NCBI GenBank assembly: GCA_020053195.1
Contig: JAGVNQ010000345.1
Span: forward strand, 1-32,520
Reading direction: 5' to 3'
Length of the DNA stretch: 32,520 bases
Origin: Sideroxydans sp.
GTDB lineage: Bacteria > Pseudomonadota > Gammaproteobacteria > Burkholderiales > Gallionellaceae
This document shows positions 1 through 7,898 of this stretch, in pieces. A program made the translations under genes and the position numbers. Numbering within the stretch: the stretch's first letter is position 1; the number at the start of each line of letters is the position of its first letter. The notes under the pieces are model-generated. The model worked only from the letters and a program-made list of their open reading frames with translations. It did not search any database and was not told the DNA's origin.

Positions 1-988
1 CGATGCGCACCGCTTCGTCGAGATATTTGGCTGCGGTTTTGCGTGTCACTTGCAACTCGTCCATCACAAACTCAATCTTGGTGTAGGGGTGACGGAACAG
101 GTTGTTTATCAAATCCTGGCTGTATATTTTTGGGAGTTCGGTGCGCAGCTTTTCCTTGTGCTGCTGCATCAGTGCCACGATGGCGGTAATCAGCGCGGTG
201 GTTTGACGCGAGGTTTGTTCCACACCGTCGAGCATGTACAGCAGCCAGTCTTGCCAGTTGCCCGTGTCGCGGGTGGTTTGCAGCAGGCGGTAGTAGTCGG
301 CTTTGTTCTGGTTGATGTAGCGGCTCAGATAAAGCAAGGGGCTGCCCAGCAAACCGTGTTGCACCAAGTACAAAATATTGATGATGCGTCCGGTTCTGCC
401 GTTGCCATCATAGAAAGGATGGATGCTTTCAAACTGGTGATGAATGATCGCCATTTTGGTGAGCGGATCCCAGTCGCACAGATCGTTTTCGTTGATGAAA
501 CGTTCGAGGTTAGTCATCAGGGAGATGATTTCATCGGGGTGTTGCGGCGGGGTGTAAACGGTTGCGCCGGTGAGGTCATTCTTCAATGCTGTGCCGGGCA
601 GCTTGCGAAAGCCTGCTCTACTTTCTTCGATGCAGGCCTGAATTTCCAGTATGTCGTTGTTGGTGAGCAGCCCGGTGCGCTTGACCTGCTCGAAGCCGTT
701 GCGCAAGGCGGTGGCGTAGTTGTGTACTTCTTTCGCCGCGACGGTGACAAATATCCGCGCCACGCTGTCGCTGCGGTACAGGTCATCATGCGTGGTGATG
801 ATATTTTCAATTGCGGAACTGTCTTTGGCTTCCTGCAACGACAGTGTGCTGATGAGAATGCTTTGATTGGGGATGCTGGCAACCACGCCTTTCAGCTCGG
901 CCAGCGCCTGATGCGCTTTGGCGAGTTTTTTCAGCACTGCGGTGGTTTCGATGTCTTGCTCAAACGGTAATGATTTGATTGTGCTCAT
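1..988 (-). CDS. Fic family protein (Fic/DOC AMP-transferase-like), 3' end cut off by the window's left edge
   Basis: Translating the minus strand from the ATG at 988 gives MSTIKSLPFEQDIETTAVLKKLAKAHQ...; Fic core motif HPFYDGNGRTGR at about 386-421 and an inhibitory-helix-like motif SSAIEN at about 808-827. The start overlaps the hsdM stop (ATGA, 985-988). Not in the ORF track because it is open at the edge. Confidence 0.92.
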   Translation of the reverse strand, partial: MSTIKSLPFEQDIETTAVLKKLAKAHQALAELKGVVASIPNQSILISTLSLQEAKDSSAIENIITTHDDLYRSDSVARIFVTVAAKEVHNYATALRNGFEQVKRTGLLTNNDILEIQACIEESRAGFRKLPGTALKNDLTGATVYTPPQHPDEIISLMTNLERFINENDLCDWDPLTKMAIIHHQFESIHPFYDGNGRTGRIINILYLVQHGLLGSPLLYLSRYINQNKADYYRLLQTTRDTGNWQDWLLYMLDGVEQTSRQTTALITAIVALMQQHKEKLRTELPKIYSQDLINNLFRHPYTKIEFVMDELQVTRKTAAKYLDEAVRI

Positions 989-3432
989 GGTTGGAATCCC
1001 ATTTTCCGCAGGTGTGCTTCCACTTTTGCGCTCAAGTTTGCCACGTTATCAGCCAGCACAGACAGCGGCGTTTCATAGCGCTCGGCCAGTTCTTTCACGC
1101 GCCGGGTAAGCGCCTGGCTGATGCGATCCATTTCGCCGTGGATGTCTTTGTCCAGCGCGGCGAGCCATTTGTCGTCCACCACCAGCATTTTGATTTCGTC
1201 TTCGCTGAGTTTGGGATATTTCGCGTAGGCCAGCACATCGAGTGCGGCTTCGGCATCTTTGATGGATTTTTTGAGGTCGGCTTCTTGGGTGCTGAGTTGC
1301 AGCCACGCATCGAGCGCGGCGATTTCATCCTTGGCGGATTTGTCGCTTTTGATTTCTTTCAGGCGCGCGGCGACATTGGCTTTGTTCACTTTGTCGAGTT
1401 CGGAATATGCGCCGTCTTCGCCGCCGTGTTCTTCCTCCAACTCGGTCATTTGAGCGGCGACGCTTTCCAGCGATGCTTCCAGTTCGCGTATGGCATGCTG
1501 CTGCGCGGCGAAGTAGTGAGCCACGATGAGCGGCTTGGGCACGAGGTCGCACGCCCAGCCTTTGTCCACTTCCTTGATCGTTTTGCCTTCCTTGTTTTTC
1601 TTGACCTCGATGATGCGGTAGGTCGTCGCAACCCAGCCATCGGCGGTGATGAGATAGCAATCGTCCTGCATAGTCGCTGACCAGTAGTCCATCAGGTGCT
1701 GATAGACATCGTATTTGTCGATGAGCGGTTTGCCGGTGTAGAAGGCGAGCAGGCTTTCCGACATCTGGCCGATTAGTTCCTTCGGATGAAAGCCTGCTTC
1801 CAGGGTCTTAAGCGCGATGGCACTCTGACCGCGCCAGGACGCGAAGAGAACATTCATGCTGTCGATGAAGGCGACGAACTCGGGATGCTGGTAGATGGTG
1901 GGTTTGATGGCTTGTTTGGGGACGGCCAGATCAAGGTAACCAACCCTCACCCCCTGCCCCTCTCCCGCTTGCGGGCGAGGGGAGAAAAGCGTCTTGCGCA
2001 GTTGCGGGCACACGTCCCAATAAGCATGCAACGCATCCACGTCGGCGCTGGGAATACCGCCCTTCAGATGACCTTCGATGTCTTGAATATCTTCGACTTG
2101 CTGGCTGTCGATGTAGCGCGGGATGTTGAGGTTGAATTCGTTCTTCTCGATTTCTTCAACACTGACCATGCGCGCATAGCTCGGGTCGCTGTCGTCGCGA
2201 CGGTTGAACACGTCCACGATCTTGTGGATGTCGCAATCGCGCAGGCGGTTTTTGTTGCCGTCCTTGAGGTAGCCGCTGCTGGCATCGATCATGAAAATGC
2301 CTTTGCGGGTGTGGGCGTTTTCCTTGTCGATGACGACGATGCAGGCAGGAATACCCGTGCCGTAAAACAGGTTGGCGGGCAAGCCGATAATGCCTTTGAT
2401 GTAACCTTTGCGGATGAGATTCCTGCGGATGTCGGCTTCGGCATTGCCGCGAAACAACACGCCGTGCGGCAGAATGCACGCGCCTTTGCCCGTGTTTTTG
2501 AGCGAACGGATGATGTGCAGCAGGTAGGCATAGTCGCCCTGCTTGGCGGGCGGTGTGCCGTAATGCTGGAAGCGTTCGTGCGGGTCGTTGAGCGGGTCGA
2601 TGCCGGTGCTCCAGCGTTTGTCGCTGAAAGGCGGATTGGCAACCACGTAGTCGAAAGTTTTGAGCTTGCCGTCTTCGCCGGTGTACAGCGGATTCGCTAG
2701 GGTGCTGTGTCCGCCTTTGATGAGCGCCGTGGGTTTGTTGTGCAGGATCATATTCATCCGCGCCAGACCGGAAGTGGCGGTGTCTTTTTCCTGACCGTAC
2801 AGCGTAACTTCCGCCTTAGCCTCATCGCCCACTTTCAACAGCAGCGAACCCGAGCCGCAGGTCGGGTCATACACGGTGGTGTTATTTGTGGTGTGCGTAT
2901 CGCGGATGCCGATGATCTGCGCCATGACGCGACTGACTTCGGCGGGCGTGTAAAACTGGCCTTTGCTCTTGCCGCTCTCGGTAGCGAAATGGCGCATCAG
3001 GTATTCATAAGCATCGCCGAGGATGTCGTCACCTTCAGCGCGGTTCTTGCTGAAATCCAGCGCCTTGTTTTCAAAGATGCCGATTAGGTTGGTGAGGCGC
3101 TCGACGATTTCTTGTCCGCTGCCCAGCTTGCTCGGGTCGTTGAAGTCCGGCATGTCGGACAACTTGTTGGCATTCGCCAGTGGCGCGATGATTTTTTTGT
3201 TGATCTGGTCGCCGATGTCCGACTTGCCCTTGAGGGCAACCATGTCCGTAAAGCTGGCACCTTTTGGAATCGTGATCGGTGCGTAAGGTACGTCGGCATA
3301 TTTGTCGCTGACGTATTTGATGAACAGCATCACCAACACGTAATCCTTGTACTGGCTGGCATCCATGCCGCCGCGCAGCTCGTCGCAGCTTGACCAGAGG
3401 GATGAATAAAGTTCGGATTTCTTGATTGCCAT
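985..3432 (-). CDS. hsdM: Type I restriction-modification system DNA methyltransferase subunit (HsdM)
   Basis: 815 aa ORF; N-terminal HsdM-like region, SAM-binding 'YDPTCGSGSLLL', N6-adenine MTase motif 'VANPPFSDKRW', long charged C-terminal region. Confidence 0.95.
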   Translation of the reverse strand: MAIKKSELYSSLWSSCDELRGGMDASQYKDYVLVMLFIKYVSDKYADVPYAPITIPKGASFTDMVALKGKSDIGDQINKKIIAPLANANKLSDMPDFNDPSKLGSGQEIVERLTNLIGIFENKALDFSKNRAEGDDILGDAYEYLMRHFATESGKSKGQFYTPAEVSRVMAQIIGIRDTHTTNNTTVYDPTCGSGSLLLKVGDEAKAEVTLYGQEKDTATSGLARMNMILHNKPTALIKGGHSTLANPLYTGEDGKLKTFDYVVANPPFSDKRWSTGIDPLNDPHERFQHYGTPPAKQGDYAYLLHIIRSLKNTGKGACILPHGVLFRGNAEADIRRNLIRKGYIKGIIGLPANLFYGTGIPACIVVIDKENAHTRKGIFMIDASSGYLKDGNKNRLRDCDIHKIVDVFNRRDDSDPSYARMVSVEEIEKNEFNLNIPRYIDSQQVEDIQDIEGHLKGGIPSADVDALHAYWDVCPQLRKTLFSPRPQAGEGQGVRVGYLDLAVPKQAIKPTIYQHPEFVAFIDSMNVLFASWRGQSAIALKTLEAGFHPKELIGQMSESLLAFYTGKPLIDKYDVYQHLMDYWSATMQDDCYLITADGWVATTYRIIEVKKNKEGKTIKEVDKGWACDLVPKPLIVAHYFAAQQHAIRELEASLESVAAQMTELEEEHGGEDGAYSELDKVNKANVAARLKEIKSDKSAKDEIAALDAWLQLSTQEADLKKSIKDAEAALDVLAYAKYPKLSEDEIKMLVVDDKWLAALDKDIHGEMDRISQALTRRVKELAERYETPLSVLADNVANLSAKVEAHLRKMGFQP
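1943..1986. repeat. Palindromic REP-like element (CCCTCTCCC family), copy inside hsdM
   Basis: ACCCTCACCCCCTGCCCCTCTCCCGCTTGCGGGCGAGGGGAGAA; encodes LFSPRPQAGEGQGVRV in HsdM. Confidence 0.85.
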
Positions 3433-3685
3433 GTGACCTTAATATGCCGTTCGTTGTGCCGAATACTTGCCGCAAAAACCCATATTACGATTGTAATGCG
3501 AATACTCTGCAATGTACTGGAATGTCCGGCACAATCCAAACTATTACCCGTCAAATTGAAAGATAAGTGAGCTATGACGAAGCCTACTACGATACCTTGG
3601 TTCGCATGTTTGAGCAGGCACAGCCACAACTTTGCTTATGGTGTCGGCGATGATATGGATGAGCTCATGCACAACTATGGTTTCG

Positions 3686-6043
3686 ATGCCTGACTCCACT
3701 GACCTTGCAAATCTACAGGCGGAAAACCAGCGCCTGATCGCATTACTCGAAGCGCACAACATTGAATGGCGCGCTTGCCCGTCTTCCGCAGTTGTTATGC
3801 TACCAGCCCCTGAACTCGCCCAGTCAAATTTGAACACAGATGAAAAAGTGGCACTGTTTCGCCGCTTGTTTCAAGGCCGCAGCGATGTTTACCCTGTTCG
3901 CTGGGAAAGCCAGAAAACCGGCAAATCCGGCTACGCGCCAGCCTGCGCAAACGAATGGCGGCATGGCGTGTGCAACAAGCCGCGCATCAAGTGTGCGGAT
4001 TGCAGCAACCGACTGTTAAGCCCGCTTACCGACACCGTCATCTACAAACACCTCGCTGGCGAACACACCGTTGGCGTTTATCCTCTGTTGGCAGATGACA
4101 CCTGTCATTTTCTTGCTGTCGATTTTGATGAGGCCGAATGGCAAGAAGATGCGAAGGCGTTTGTACAATCGGGCAATGAATTGGGTGTGCCAATAGCACT
4201 CGAAATTTCCCGCTCCGGCAACGGCGCGCATGCTTGGGTTTTCTTTGCTGGCAGGGTTTCCGCGCGCGATGCCCGGCGGCTGGGCACGGCCATCATCAGC
4301 CATACCTGCGCCCGCACCCGGCAACTCAAGCTTGCATCCTATGATCGGCTTTTCCCCAATCAAGACACGATGCCAAAGGGAGGTTTCGGCAATTTGATCG
4401 CGCTGCCCTTGCAGAAGAAGCCGCGCGAAAACGGTTGCAGTGTGTTCGTGGATGCGGCATTGCATCCTTATCCAGACCAATGGGCTTTCCTGGATTCTAT
4501 CCAGCCGATGCCTGCACACGACATCGAGCCGACCATCCTGCTTGCCACTGGTGGCGCGCATCCGCTGGACGTGACCTTCATTGACGAAGAAGACCTCAAA
4601 CAACCTTGGAAGCGATCCGCACCCGCAACCAAGAAACTTGCAGGTGCAATGCCGAAATCGCTCACAGTAACGTTGTCTAATCTTATCTATTTTGAAAAAG
4701 AACAACTACCGCAAGCGTTGGCCAATCGCCTGATCCGACTTGCGGCTTTTCAGAATCCAGAATTCTACAAAGCGCAGGCAATGCGCATGTCGGTTTGGGA
4801 TAAGCCGCGCGTGATTGGCTGCGCGGAAAATTATCCGAATCACATTGCGCTGCCTCGCGGTTGTTTGGATGCGGCGCTGGAATTGCTGCGCGACAACAGC
4901 GTCGACTGCAATCTAAAAGATGAGCGATTCGTCGGCGATGCAATCGACGCGGCTTTCGCCGGAACACTGCGCCTGGATCAAGAAGCAGCGATAGCCGGGA
5001 TGTTGCATTTCGATTCAGGCGTATTGTGCGCGCCGACCGCATTCGGCAAAACTGTGGTGGCTGCTGCAATGATCGCCGAGCGCGGCGTGAACACGCTGGT
5101 GCTGGTGCATCGCACCGAGTTGCTCAAGCAATGGCAAGCGCGGTTGCAGGCATTTCTTGGTGTCGGCAAAGGCGTGGTGGGAACGATTGGTGGAGGTAAA
5201 GCCAAACTGACCGGCAAGATCGACATCGCGGTGATGCAGTCCGTGTCGCGCCAAGGCGAGATCAATCCGCTAGTCGAGAACTACGGGCTCGTGATCATCG
5301 ATGAATGCCATCACGTCGGAGCGGTGTCGTTCGATGCGATTCTGAAACGGGTCAAAGCGAAATACGTGCTCGGCTTGACTGCCACCCCGATCCGGCGCGA
5401 CGGACAGCAGCCCATCATCTTCATGCAATGCGGGTCGATTCGTTATACGGCAGTGAAACCCGCCAATGCGCCGCACGATTTAGACGTGATTCCGCAACTG
5501 CTGCACACGCGAATTGATCTACCGCAAGAAGCCGGAATTCAGGATGTATTCCGCCACCTCGCCGCCGACAAAGCGCGCACCATGGCGATCGCCGCTCAAA
5601 TCGAGAACGCTTACAACCAAGGTCGAAAAGTGCTCGTGCTAACCGAGCGCACCGAACATCTGGATGCCCTCCAAGCCGCATTGGACGGAAAAATGCTTTC
5701 ACTTTTTGTGCTGCACGGACGACTGTCGAAGAAACTGCGCACATCGGTCGTCACGCAACTCGAAGCACTGCTGCCCGATGCCCCTCGCGTCTTGCTCGCC
5801 ACGGGAAAGTTAGTGGGCGAAGGTTTTGACCATCCGCCACTCGATACGCTGGTGCTGGCCATGCCGGTTTCGTGGACGGGTACGCTCCAGCAATACGCGG
5901 GACGTTTGCACCGCGAACACGCAAGCAAAACCAATGTACGGGTGATCGACTTTGTGGATACAGGCCACCCGGCGCTGCTGCGCATGTGGGACAAACGCCA
6001 GCGCGGGTATCGGGCGATGGGGTACAAAATCAACACTGAATGA
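3686..6043 (+). CDS. TOTE-type archaeo-eukaryotic primase (AEP) domain fused to SF2 DEAD/DEAH-box-like helicase
   Basis: Cys cluster 'CANEWRHGVCNKPRIKCADC', AEP-like 'FLAVDFDEAEW' and 'ISRSGNGAHAWVFF', then SF2 helicase motifs 'APTAFGKT', 'IIDECHH', 'GLTATPIRRDG', and C-terminal 'LATGKLVGEGFDHPPLDTLVLAMPVSWTGTLQQYAGRLHR'. ORF opens at 3632; the ATG at 3686 (MPDSTDLANLQAENQRLIALL) is a likelier start. Confidence 0.85.
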   Translation: MPDSTDLANLQAENQRLIALLEAHNIEWRACPSSAVVMLPAPELAQSNLNTDEKVALFRRLFQGRSDVYPVRWESQKTGKSGYAPACANEWRHGVCNKPRIKCADCSNRLLSPLTDTVIYKHLAGEHTVGVYPLLADDTCHFLAVDFDEAEWQEDAKAFVQSGNELGVPIALEISRSGNGAHAWVFFAGRVSARDARRLGTAIISHTCARTRQLKLASYDRLFPNQDTMPKGGFGNLIALPLQKKPRENGCSVFVDAALHPYPDQWAFLDSIQPMPAHDIEPTILLATGGAHPLDVTFIDEEDLKQPWKRSAPATKKLAGAMPKSLTVTLSNLIYFEKEQLPQALANRLIRLAAFQNPEFYKAQAMRMSVWDKPRVIGCAENYPNHIALPRGCLDAALELLRDNSVDCNLKDERFVGDAIDAAFAGTLRLDQEAAIAGMLHFDSGVLCAPTAFGKTVVAAAMIAERGVNTLVLVHRTELLKQWQARLQAFLGVGKGVVGTIGGGKAKLTGKIDIAVMQSVSRQGEINPLVENYGLVIIDECHHVGAVSFDAILKRVKAKYVLGLTATPIRRDGQQPIIFMQCGSIRYTAVKPANAPHDLDVIPQLLHTRIDLPQEAGIQDVFRHLAADKARTMAIAAQIENAYNQGRKVLVLTERTEHLDALQAALDGKMLSLFVLHGRLSKKLRTSVVTQLEALLPDAPRVLLATGKLVGEGFDHPPLDTLVLAMPVSWTGTLQQYAGRLHREHASKTNVRVIDFVDTGHPALLRMWDKRQRGYRAMGYKINTE

Positions 6044-6119
6044 CACGAACATCCCCAACTTTATTGAAGCCTCCGCCCTATAACGGTATAGTCCGCCAAA
6101 CTTCCATCAAGGCAAATCT

Positions 6120-7898
6120 ATGGCTGCGCAAAACGTTCCAGAACACAAACTGAAACTGGCTGAAGTGCTGGGTATGCTGGTCAAGGATGGTGTCGTCGGC
6201 CAGGACGATGCCGATGCGCTGATCGCCGAGCGGCGCATCCACCGGCAGGATGTACATCCGCTGGTCTCCATCTCCGAAAAAAACTGGAAGTCGCTGCTGC
6301 CGCCGCAACGCATTCTGACACTTGATTCGCTGACCGAATGGCTGGCCGCCAAGGTCGGGCTGGAATACCTGCATATCGACCCGCTGAAAATCGACTTCGC
6401 CAACATGAGCGACATGATGTCGATCGAGTACGCCACGCGCTTCACCATCATGCCTATCCGCATGGACAACAACGATTTGGTGGTGGCGACCGCCGAGCCG
6501 TTCCTGCGCGACTGGGAGTCCATGCTCAAGCAGATTTCGCGCAAAAATATCCAGCGCGTGTTCGCTTCGCCCACCGACATCAGCCGCTATCTGGTGGAGT
6601 TTTACAATCTGGCGCGCTCGGTGAAAAGCGCGACCAAAGCGAATAACGATTCTTCCACGCTGGCTTCGTTCGAGCAGTTGGTCGATCTGGGCAAGACCAG
6701 CAAACAGTTCGATGCCAACGACCAGCACATCGTGCATATCGTGGATTGGTTGTGGCAGTACGCGTTCGACCAGCGCGCGTCCGACATCCACATGGAGCCG
6801 CGCCGCGAACTCGGCATCGTGCGCTTCCGCATCGACGGCGTGTTGCACCAAGTGCATCAGCTGCCGATGTCGGTGATCACCGCGATGACCAGCCGCATCA
6901 AACTGCTTGGACGCATGGACTTAATGGAAAAGCGCCGCCCGCAAGATGGCCGCATCAAGACGCGCACCGAAAACGGACAGGAAATCGAGTTGCGCCTTTC
7001 CACGCTGCCCACCGCGTTCGGCGAAAAACTGGTGATGCGCGTTTTCGACCCGGAAGTGTTGATGCGCGATTTTTCCGAACTGGGGTTTTCCGAAGACGAC
7101 CGCGCGCGCTGGGAGCTGATGACGCAAAAACCCAACGGCATCATTCTGGTCACCGGCCCCACCGGCTCGGGCAAAACCACCACGCTGTATTCCACGCTCA
7201 AAACGCTGGCGACACCCGAAGTTAATGTCTGCACGCTGGAAGACCCCATCGAAATGGTGGAGCCCGCGTTCAACCAGATGCAGATTCAGCAAGGGCTGGA
7301 TCTGGGCTTCGCCGAAGGAGTGCGCGCGCTGATGCGGCAGGACCCGGACATCATCATGGTAGGCGAAATCCGCGATCTGGAAACCGCCGATATGGCGATC
7401 CAGGCCGCGCTCACCGGCCATCTGGTGATCTCGACCCTGCACACCAACGATGCGCCTTCGGCCATCACCCGCCTGCTCGATCTGGGCGTGCCGCCTTATC
7501 TGATCAACGCCACGCTGCTGGGCATCATGGCGCAACGTCTGGTGCGCACGTTGTGCCCGCACTGCAAAAAACCGCAGCCCATGCAAGAGACCGAAAACGA
7601 GCTGTGGGATCATCTGGTCGCGCCGTGGAAAGCCGCGCGACCGCCGCAGTTGCAACAGCCGCAAGGCTGCCTCGAATGCCGCATGACGGGCTATTCCGGG
7701 CGTATCGGCATTTACGAAATCCTGCTCATGTCGCCGGAACTGCGCAAACTCATCACCGCCGAAACCAACATCGCCGCGCTGCGCGATCAAGCCAACCGCG
7801 AAGGCATGAAGCCGCTGCGCATTTCCGGCGCGCAAAAAATCGCCGCCGGACTCACCACGCTGGAAGAAATCCTGAAAACTTCACCGCCCTCGGAATAA
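6120..7898 (+). CDS. GspE/PulE/PilB family secretion/pilus assembly ATPase
   Basis: 592 aa; Walker A 'GPTGSGKTTTLYSTL', Asp box 'TLEDPIE', Walker B 'DPDIIMVGEIRD', His box 'HLVISTLHTNDA', CxxC-type zinc motif 'CPHCKK...CLEC', N-terminal MshEN-like region. Confidence 0.93.
   Translation: MAAQNVPEHKLKLAEVLGMLVKDGVVGQDDADALIAERRIHRQDVHPLVSISEKNWKSLLPPQRILTLDSLTEWLAAKVGLEYLHIDPLKIDFANMSDMMSIEYATRFTIMPIRMDNNDLVVATAEPFLRDWESMLKQISRKNIQRVFASPTDISRYLVEFYNLARSVKSATKANNDSSTLASFEQLVDLGKTSKQFDANDQHIVHIVDWLWQYAFDQRASDIHMEPRRELGIVRFRIDGVLHQVHQLPMSVITAMTSRIKLLGRMDLMEKRRPQDGRIKTRTENGQEIELRLSTLPTAFGEKLVMRVFDPEVLMRDFSELGFSEDDRARWELMTQKPNGIILVTGPTGSGKTTTLYSTLKTLATPEVNVCTLEDPIEMVEPAFNQMQIQQGLDLGFAEGVRALMRQDPDIIMVGEIRDLETADMAIQAALTGHLVISTLHTNDAPSAITRLLDLGVPPYLINATLLGIMAQRLVRTLCPHCKKPQPMQETENELWDHLVAPWKAARPPQLQQPQGCLECRMTGYSGRIGIYEILLMSPELRKLITAETNIAALRDQANREGMKPLRISGAQKIAAGLTTLEEILKTSPPSE

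Follow-up and report, generated by a model that had tools for sequence, protein, structure and literature searches.

The window analysed here, a stretch of 32,520 nucleotides from Sideroxydans sp. whose first base is also the first base of its contig (JAGVNQ010000345.1), carries near its left end a gene for a primase-helicase fusion. As the first-pass annotation had stated, this gene is placed divergently from hsdM and a Fic gene. The following features were assigned:

1–988, minus strand: Fic gene, SoFic-like, truncated where the contig ends; an accessory member of the hsdM operon
985–3432, minus strand: hsdM, type I restriction-modification (R-M) methyltransferase of 815 aa, from profile matches; most likely part of a separate R-M operon
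3576–3693, plus strand: relict of a DUF6155-like partner gene, from comparison with the intact L101 copy (two tblastn segments, E = 8e-9)
3686–6043, plus strand: AEP (PrimPol)–SF2 helicase fusion of 785 aa, best assigned to the non-CRISPR CAPP-helicase type
3842–4528, plus strand: AEP/PrimPol domain (aa 53–281), from the Pfam AEP-TOTE match, the CAPP PDB match and conservation
4967–5914, plus strand: SF2 helicase domains (aa 428–743), from Pfam ResIII, DEAD and Helicase_C and from XPB/UvsW matches
6055–6119, plus strand: start of the conserved chromosomal flank, the leader of a T2SSE-family ATPase gene at 6120; boundary common to genomes G027 and G008

Architecture and conservation of the primase-helicase

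The open reading frame starts with ATG and runs through 785 codons without an internal stop. Pfam analysis of the protein revealed AEP-TOTE at residues 53–281 (E = 1.2e-101), ResIII at 428–570 (E = 8.3e-24) accompanied by a DEAD match, and Helicase_C at 643–743 (E = 1.6e-7), and the scan found no nuclease domain. These results agree with the initial description of an AEP domain fused to an SF2 helicase with a DECH box and no obvious nuclease domain.

The Cys cluster and AEP-like motifs of that description are likewise present in the primase domain, with four cysteines forming a zinc knuckle (C87/C96/C103/C106), motif I reading LAVDFD (D146xD148), motif II SGNGAH (G180-A-H182), and motif III comprising Y219-D220, assigned by the pattern hD/E and its invariance. 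In the HMMER alignment, motif III is shifted by one position relative to the acidic residue of CAPP, so that the assignment of D220 rests on pattern and conservation. All three elements of the PrimPol/AEP superfamily signature (motif I hhhDhD/E, motif II sxH, motif III hD/E; PMC10345425) were located in the domain. The helicase part contains the Walker A motif APTAFGKT (449–456), DECHH (539–543, with the DECH box at 539–542) and motif VI QYAGRLHR (736–743). Comparison of 39 homologues revealed the zinc knuckle, motifs I and III, Walker A, DECHH and motif VI to be invariant, while 38 of them retain H182 of motif II and one has Y in its place; a distant copy on an alphaproteobacterial plasmid (~46% identical) shows the same motifs.

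Comparison with the closest relative, the orthologue of genome G013 (86% identical), gave a dN/dS of 0.083 over the whole gene and of 0.038 for the primase domain. These values show purifying selection on a real gene, as opposed to a chance reading frame. The full-length AlphaFold model was weak (mean pLDDT 66) and served for domain-level fold matches only.

Judged by its sequence, the protein is best called a non-CRISPR CAPP-helicase. Its primase domain is homologous to Marinitoga CAPP (PDB 7nqd/7nqf, E ~3e-11), the predicted model of the domain matches the CAPP fold with TM 0.74–0.76 (normalised to CAPP), and the PADLOC PrimPol model PDLC01465 was matched with E = 4.8e-115. The order found here, a CAPP_A-class PrimPol followed by a helicase, is that of the CAPP-helicase, which has been described before and is the architecture encountered most often outside CRISPR loci (PMC8211822). 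While the protein shares this order with CAPP_A type 3 (CAPP-helicase), together with conserved catalytic motifs, it differs in lying outside a CRISPR locus, in its conserved four-Cys knuckle and in its company, which comprises R-M genes, RhuM, YhcG, YgjP and the DUF6155-like partner. A CRISPR-linked CAPP was rejected because the gene does not lie in a CRISPR-Cas operon: there was no cas gene among the scanned window genes and no repeat array in the window, which starts at a contig end, the sole Cas1 match in the genome sits on a different contig (C195), and no Cas family was found among the recurrent neighbours of 80 homologues.

Sequence and fold matches place the helicase part nearest to XPB, RadD and UvsW, with which it shares the helicase core and fold. 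It differs from these SF2 helicases in being fused to a PrimPol, and the protein scores far under the cut-offs set for XPB and RadD equivalogs.

The TOTE-type membership proposed in the first-pass annotation did not hold. TOTE denotes TPR, OB, TBP and Effector (PMC12458937), and the AEP-TOTE primase domain family is common to such systems and to our protein; moreover, RefSeq gives E. coli homologues (e.g. L152:11864–14224) the name ‘TOTE conflict system archaeo-eukaryotic primase domain-containing protein’. However, a TBP gene (PF00352) was detected in none of 45 carrier genomes (that of the window and 44 others), while archaeal controls scored, and TPR and OB/cold-shock genes were absent from the 25 commonest Pfam families of the two nearest neighbours on each side, a selection that would miss rarer cases. 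A genuine TOTE effector, contradicted by the missing TBP, thus has next to no probability, and the link to TOTE is limited to the name given to the primase domain family. Both the RefSeq label and the PADLOC label ‘PrimPol, CAS associated’ imply contexts that are absent in these proteins.

A lost partner gene and a neighbouring restriction-modification operon

In 16 of 80 homologous loci, a gene of ~181 aa lies complete or nearly complete immediately upstream of the primase-helicase, with fragments in four more. It often overlaps the start of the primase-helicase, as in G013 and Azotobacter. In Pfam, 12 of 14 members matched DUF6155 weakly (best 2.8e-4, with the first member below the cut-off). 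The protein was modelled as all-helical (pLDDT 84), and Foldseek returned generic helical-repeat matches only, at E above 0.08. The relict in the window retains the C-terminal codons only, in two frames encoding ‘SYDEAYYDTLVRMFEQ’ and ‘HNFAYGVGDDMDELMHNYGFDA*’, and its stop overlaps the primase-helicase start as ATGCCTGA. From these remnants we concluded that the ancestral unit at the locus evidently consisted of partner and primase-helicase, the partner having since been lost.

The right boundary of the site (from about 6055) is conserved across the genus, and the content upstream of the site differs between genomes. In G027 and G008, a 5′ relict of the primase-helicase, corresponding to window positions 3716–3822 (L104, 9753–9859, and L137, 3343–3443, respectively), is joined directly to the leader of the T2SSE gene, and the G027 relict contains a stop. 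The gene therefore occupied this site in the genus before and decayed there.

The hsdM-fic pair is most likely part of a type I R-M operon of its own, which came to lie next to the primase-helicase. Homologues of the 815-aa HsdM (58–73% identical) were found in 12 other genomes of a 200-genome sample of the order as well as on plasmids, and the operon of this subtype comprises hsdM, a variable accessory gene (PDDEXK, RhuM or none), hsdS, hsdR and a YgjP/SprT metalloprotease. Since none of eight loci of the subtype holds the primase-helicase, the R-M operon stands alone elsewhere and its association with the primase-helicase is not a conserved one. Within the same genome, contig C163 carries an hsdR, followed by YgjP, that is 70–73% identical to the hsdR in four of the six loci of the subtype with hsdR, and 51–52% identical to the other two. 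This YgjP-hsdR cluster is probably the other half of the R-M operon in the window, which suggests that one operon is divided between contigs C61 and C163, the join being absent from the assembly. Because no exact 20-base overlap was found between the left end of the window and five R-M contigs, the link rests on matching of the subtype.

The C163 cluster spans YgjP-hsdR-SLFN/AlbA (L107, 5925–10779). Three further hsdR-hsdM-hsdS clusters are present on contigs C13, C56 and C235 of this genome, G000 (L109, L110 and L111), and an hsdR-RhuM-hsdS cluster on C334 (L108). The host is an R-M-rich bacterium with a 3-Mb draft genome.

The composite R-M and primase-helicase system suggested at first, in which hsdM-fic and the primase-helicase would work as one, draws on their adjacency, which was seen in the window only. 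However, a relict of a different partner lies between hsdM and the primase-helicase, loci of the hsdM subtype elsewhere have their own hsdR-YgjP and lack the primase-helicase, and the homologous loci contain no close relative of the window's hsdM (best 42%, over partial length). We rejected the composite on the relict and on the subtype's own operon, and regard it as highly improbable. Wherever hsdM was detected in the homologous loci (14 cases), it is co-directional with the primase-helicase, the divergent orientation being confined to the window; the back-to-back arrangement is probably a product of island rearrangement.

The association of the homologues with restriction and other defence genes, which the first-pass annotation had proposed to examine by neighbourhood statistics, is statistically real. 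With this association and the conserved AEP catalytic residues, neither of the two outcomes that the annotation had named as refuting its proposal was observed. Profile searches of neighbouring ORFs located hsdM within ~10 kb (fetched flanks) in 10 of the 44 loci whose whole genomes had N6_Mtase counted, compared to 1.1 expected from genome-wide numbers (simulated P <5e-6; 0 of 200,000 simulations reached 10). An R-M-like gene was found near 30 of 80 loci, and an R-M or accessory defence gene near 44 of 80, counting RhuM, YhcG, Fic, SLFN-AlbA and YgjP, all of which recur; as ‘hsdR’ was called at a threshold of E = 1e-4, some of these calls may be other SF2 helicases. The flanks retrieved for the remaining 36 loci, some of them short, showed neither a restriction gene nor an accessory defence gene. 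Type I R-M operons that carry Fic, YhcG, RhuM, SLFN-AlbA or YgjP as accessory genes form the usual neighbourhood, though the primase-helicase, unlike type I R-M components, has no nuclease or methylase domain.

Among 145 proteins encoded by the two nearest upstream genes, RhuM ranked first (11), followed by HsdR domains (6), and the nearest downstream genes are diverse, with integrases as the top family; the primase-helicase is therefore typically the last gene in its operon. A family without Pfam or PADLOC match (F7, ~385 aa) was also observed near the primase-helicase in eight loci, e.g. L002:3342–4499, L055:6968–8122 and L059:8826–9980.

Distribution and proposed role

The 80 homologues fetched (70–81% identity) come nearly all from beta- and gammaproteobacteria according to their record titles. 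Full-length copies were found in 3 of 61 genomes of the window's genus and its relatives, whereas 676 of 5426 complete E. coli genomes (~12%) hold a copy over at least 80% of the length. The inspected E. coli copies are located in islands next to tRNA-Thr or an integrase gene, in the company of AlpA-like, YfjI and inovirus-type Gp2 genes. Near-full-length copies (at least 80% of the length) were detected in 91 plasmid records, with at least one plasmid copy between a resolvase and a Tn3 transposase. Three loci were found in viral contigs, and none of 50,697 phage records held a copy over 80% of the length; the reading as a phage replication gene was rejected. As a separate observation, the primase-helicase lies immediately 3′ of a recombinase-family gene in L155 (7382–13319) and L164 (5382–9289), in L155 also 5′ of a Tn3 transposase, and both copies are apparent transposon passengers.

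The best-supported reading would be an accessory role in DNA processing within defence islands. We give about an even chance to the primase-helicase being a mobile accessory gene of such islands that processes foreign or restriction-damaged DNA beside defence genes; action against invaders is favoured on context, at a similarly balanced level of confidence. In this mechanism, the SF2 motor would draw on ATP to unwind or remodel the double strand at DNA ends or forks, the PrimPol would prime and extend on the exposed single strand, and the protein would thereby process foreign DNA or DNA damaged by restriction, supplementing the defence genes beside it. Consistent with such a role are the intact PrimPol site, the zinc knuckle, the XPB/UvsW-like motor and the low dN/dS, the hsdM enrichment and the RhuM- and HsdR-led upstream genes, the partner gene with its overlap of the start codon region in G013 and Azotobacter and its relict in the window, the prior description of the CAPP-helicase as the commonest non-CRISPR architecture (PMC8211822), and the spread through E. 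coli and plasmids with no near-full-length copy in phage records. Against it stand the 36 loci without a restriction or accessory gene in their flanks, the weak full-length model, and the integrase/AlpA/YfjI islands and resolvase/Tn3 neighbours, which also fit a role in mobile elements.

A role in damage tolerance, in which the helicase would remodel forks or ends that nearby R-M systems have broken and the PrimPol would reprime, so that the host chromosome is shielded from self-restriction and invaders are not the target, appears rather unlikely. The similarity of the helicase to XPB-, RadD- and UvsW-type repair motors, the repeated position behind hsdR or RhuM, and the action of PrimPols in repair and damage tolerance (PMC10345425) all point in this direction, but in many carriers no R-M gene lies closer than 10 kb, and the sporadic, mobile distribution seen among related genomes is less expected for a repair gene.

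Unlikely, too, is a function in which mobile elements (Tn3-type transposons, integrative islands, plasmids) use the protein as a primase-helicase for their replication or establishment; it would then convert incoming single strands into duplex or aid replication of the element. Copies between resolvase and Tn3 transposase and in integrase-AlpA-YfjI-Gp2 islands fit this function, as do non-CRISPR CAPP relatives reported in mobile elements (PMC8211822). However, phage records are devoid of full-length copies and viral contigs yielded the three loci only, the neighbourhood is enriched for R-M and defence genes, and the E. coli islands already have their own YfjI/DUF3987 gene.

Returning to the accessory role in defence islands, PrimPol-helicase fusions are common, yet we found no functional or experimental study of the family in the literature library searched, which also weighs against that reading. 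Nor did this literature yield a report of the tail position in R-M operons and of the operon partner. A speculative extension, to which we assign a low probability, is that the DUF6155-like protein and the PrimPol-helicase might form a two-gene module repeatedly added to type I/III R-M operons and acting on the DNA ends that these create; for example, priming and copying of single strands could block the recombination-based escape of restricted phage DNA. A partner gene and a PrimPol-helicase closing R-M operons offer a testable arrangement.
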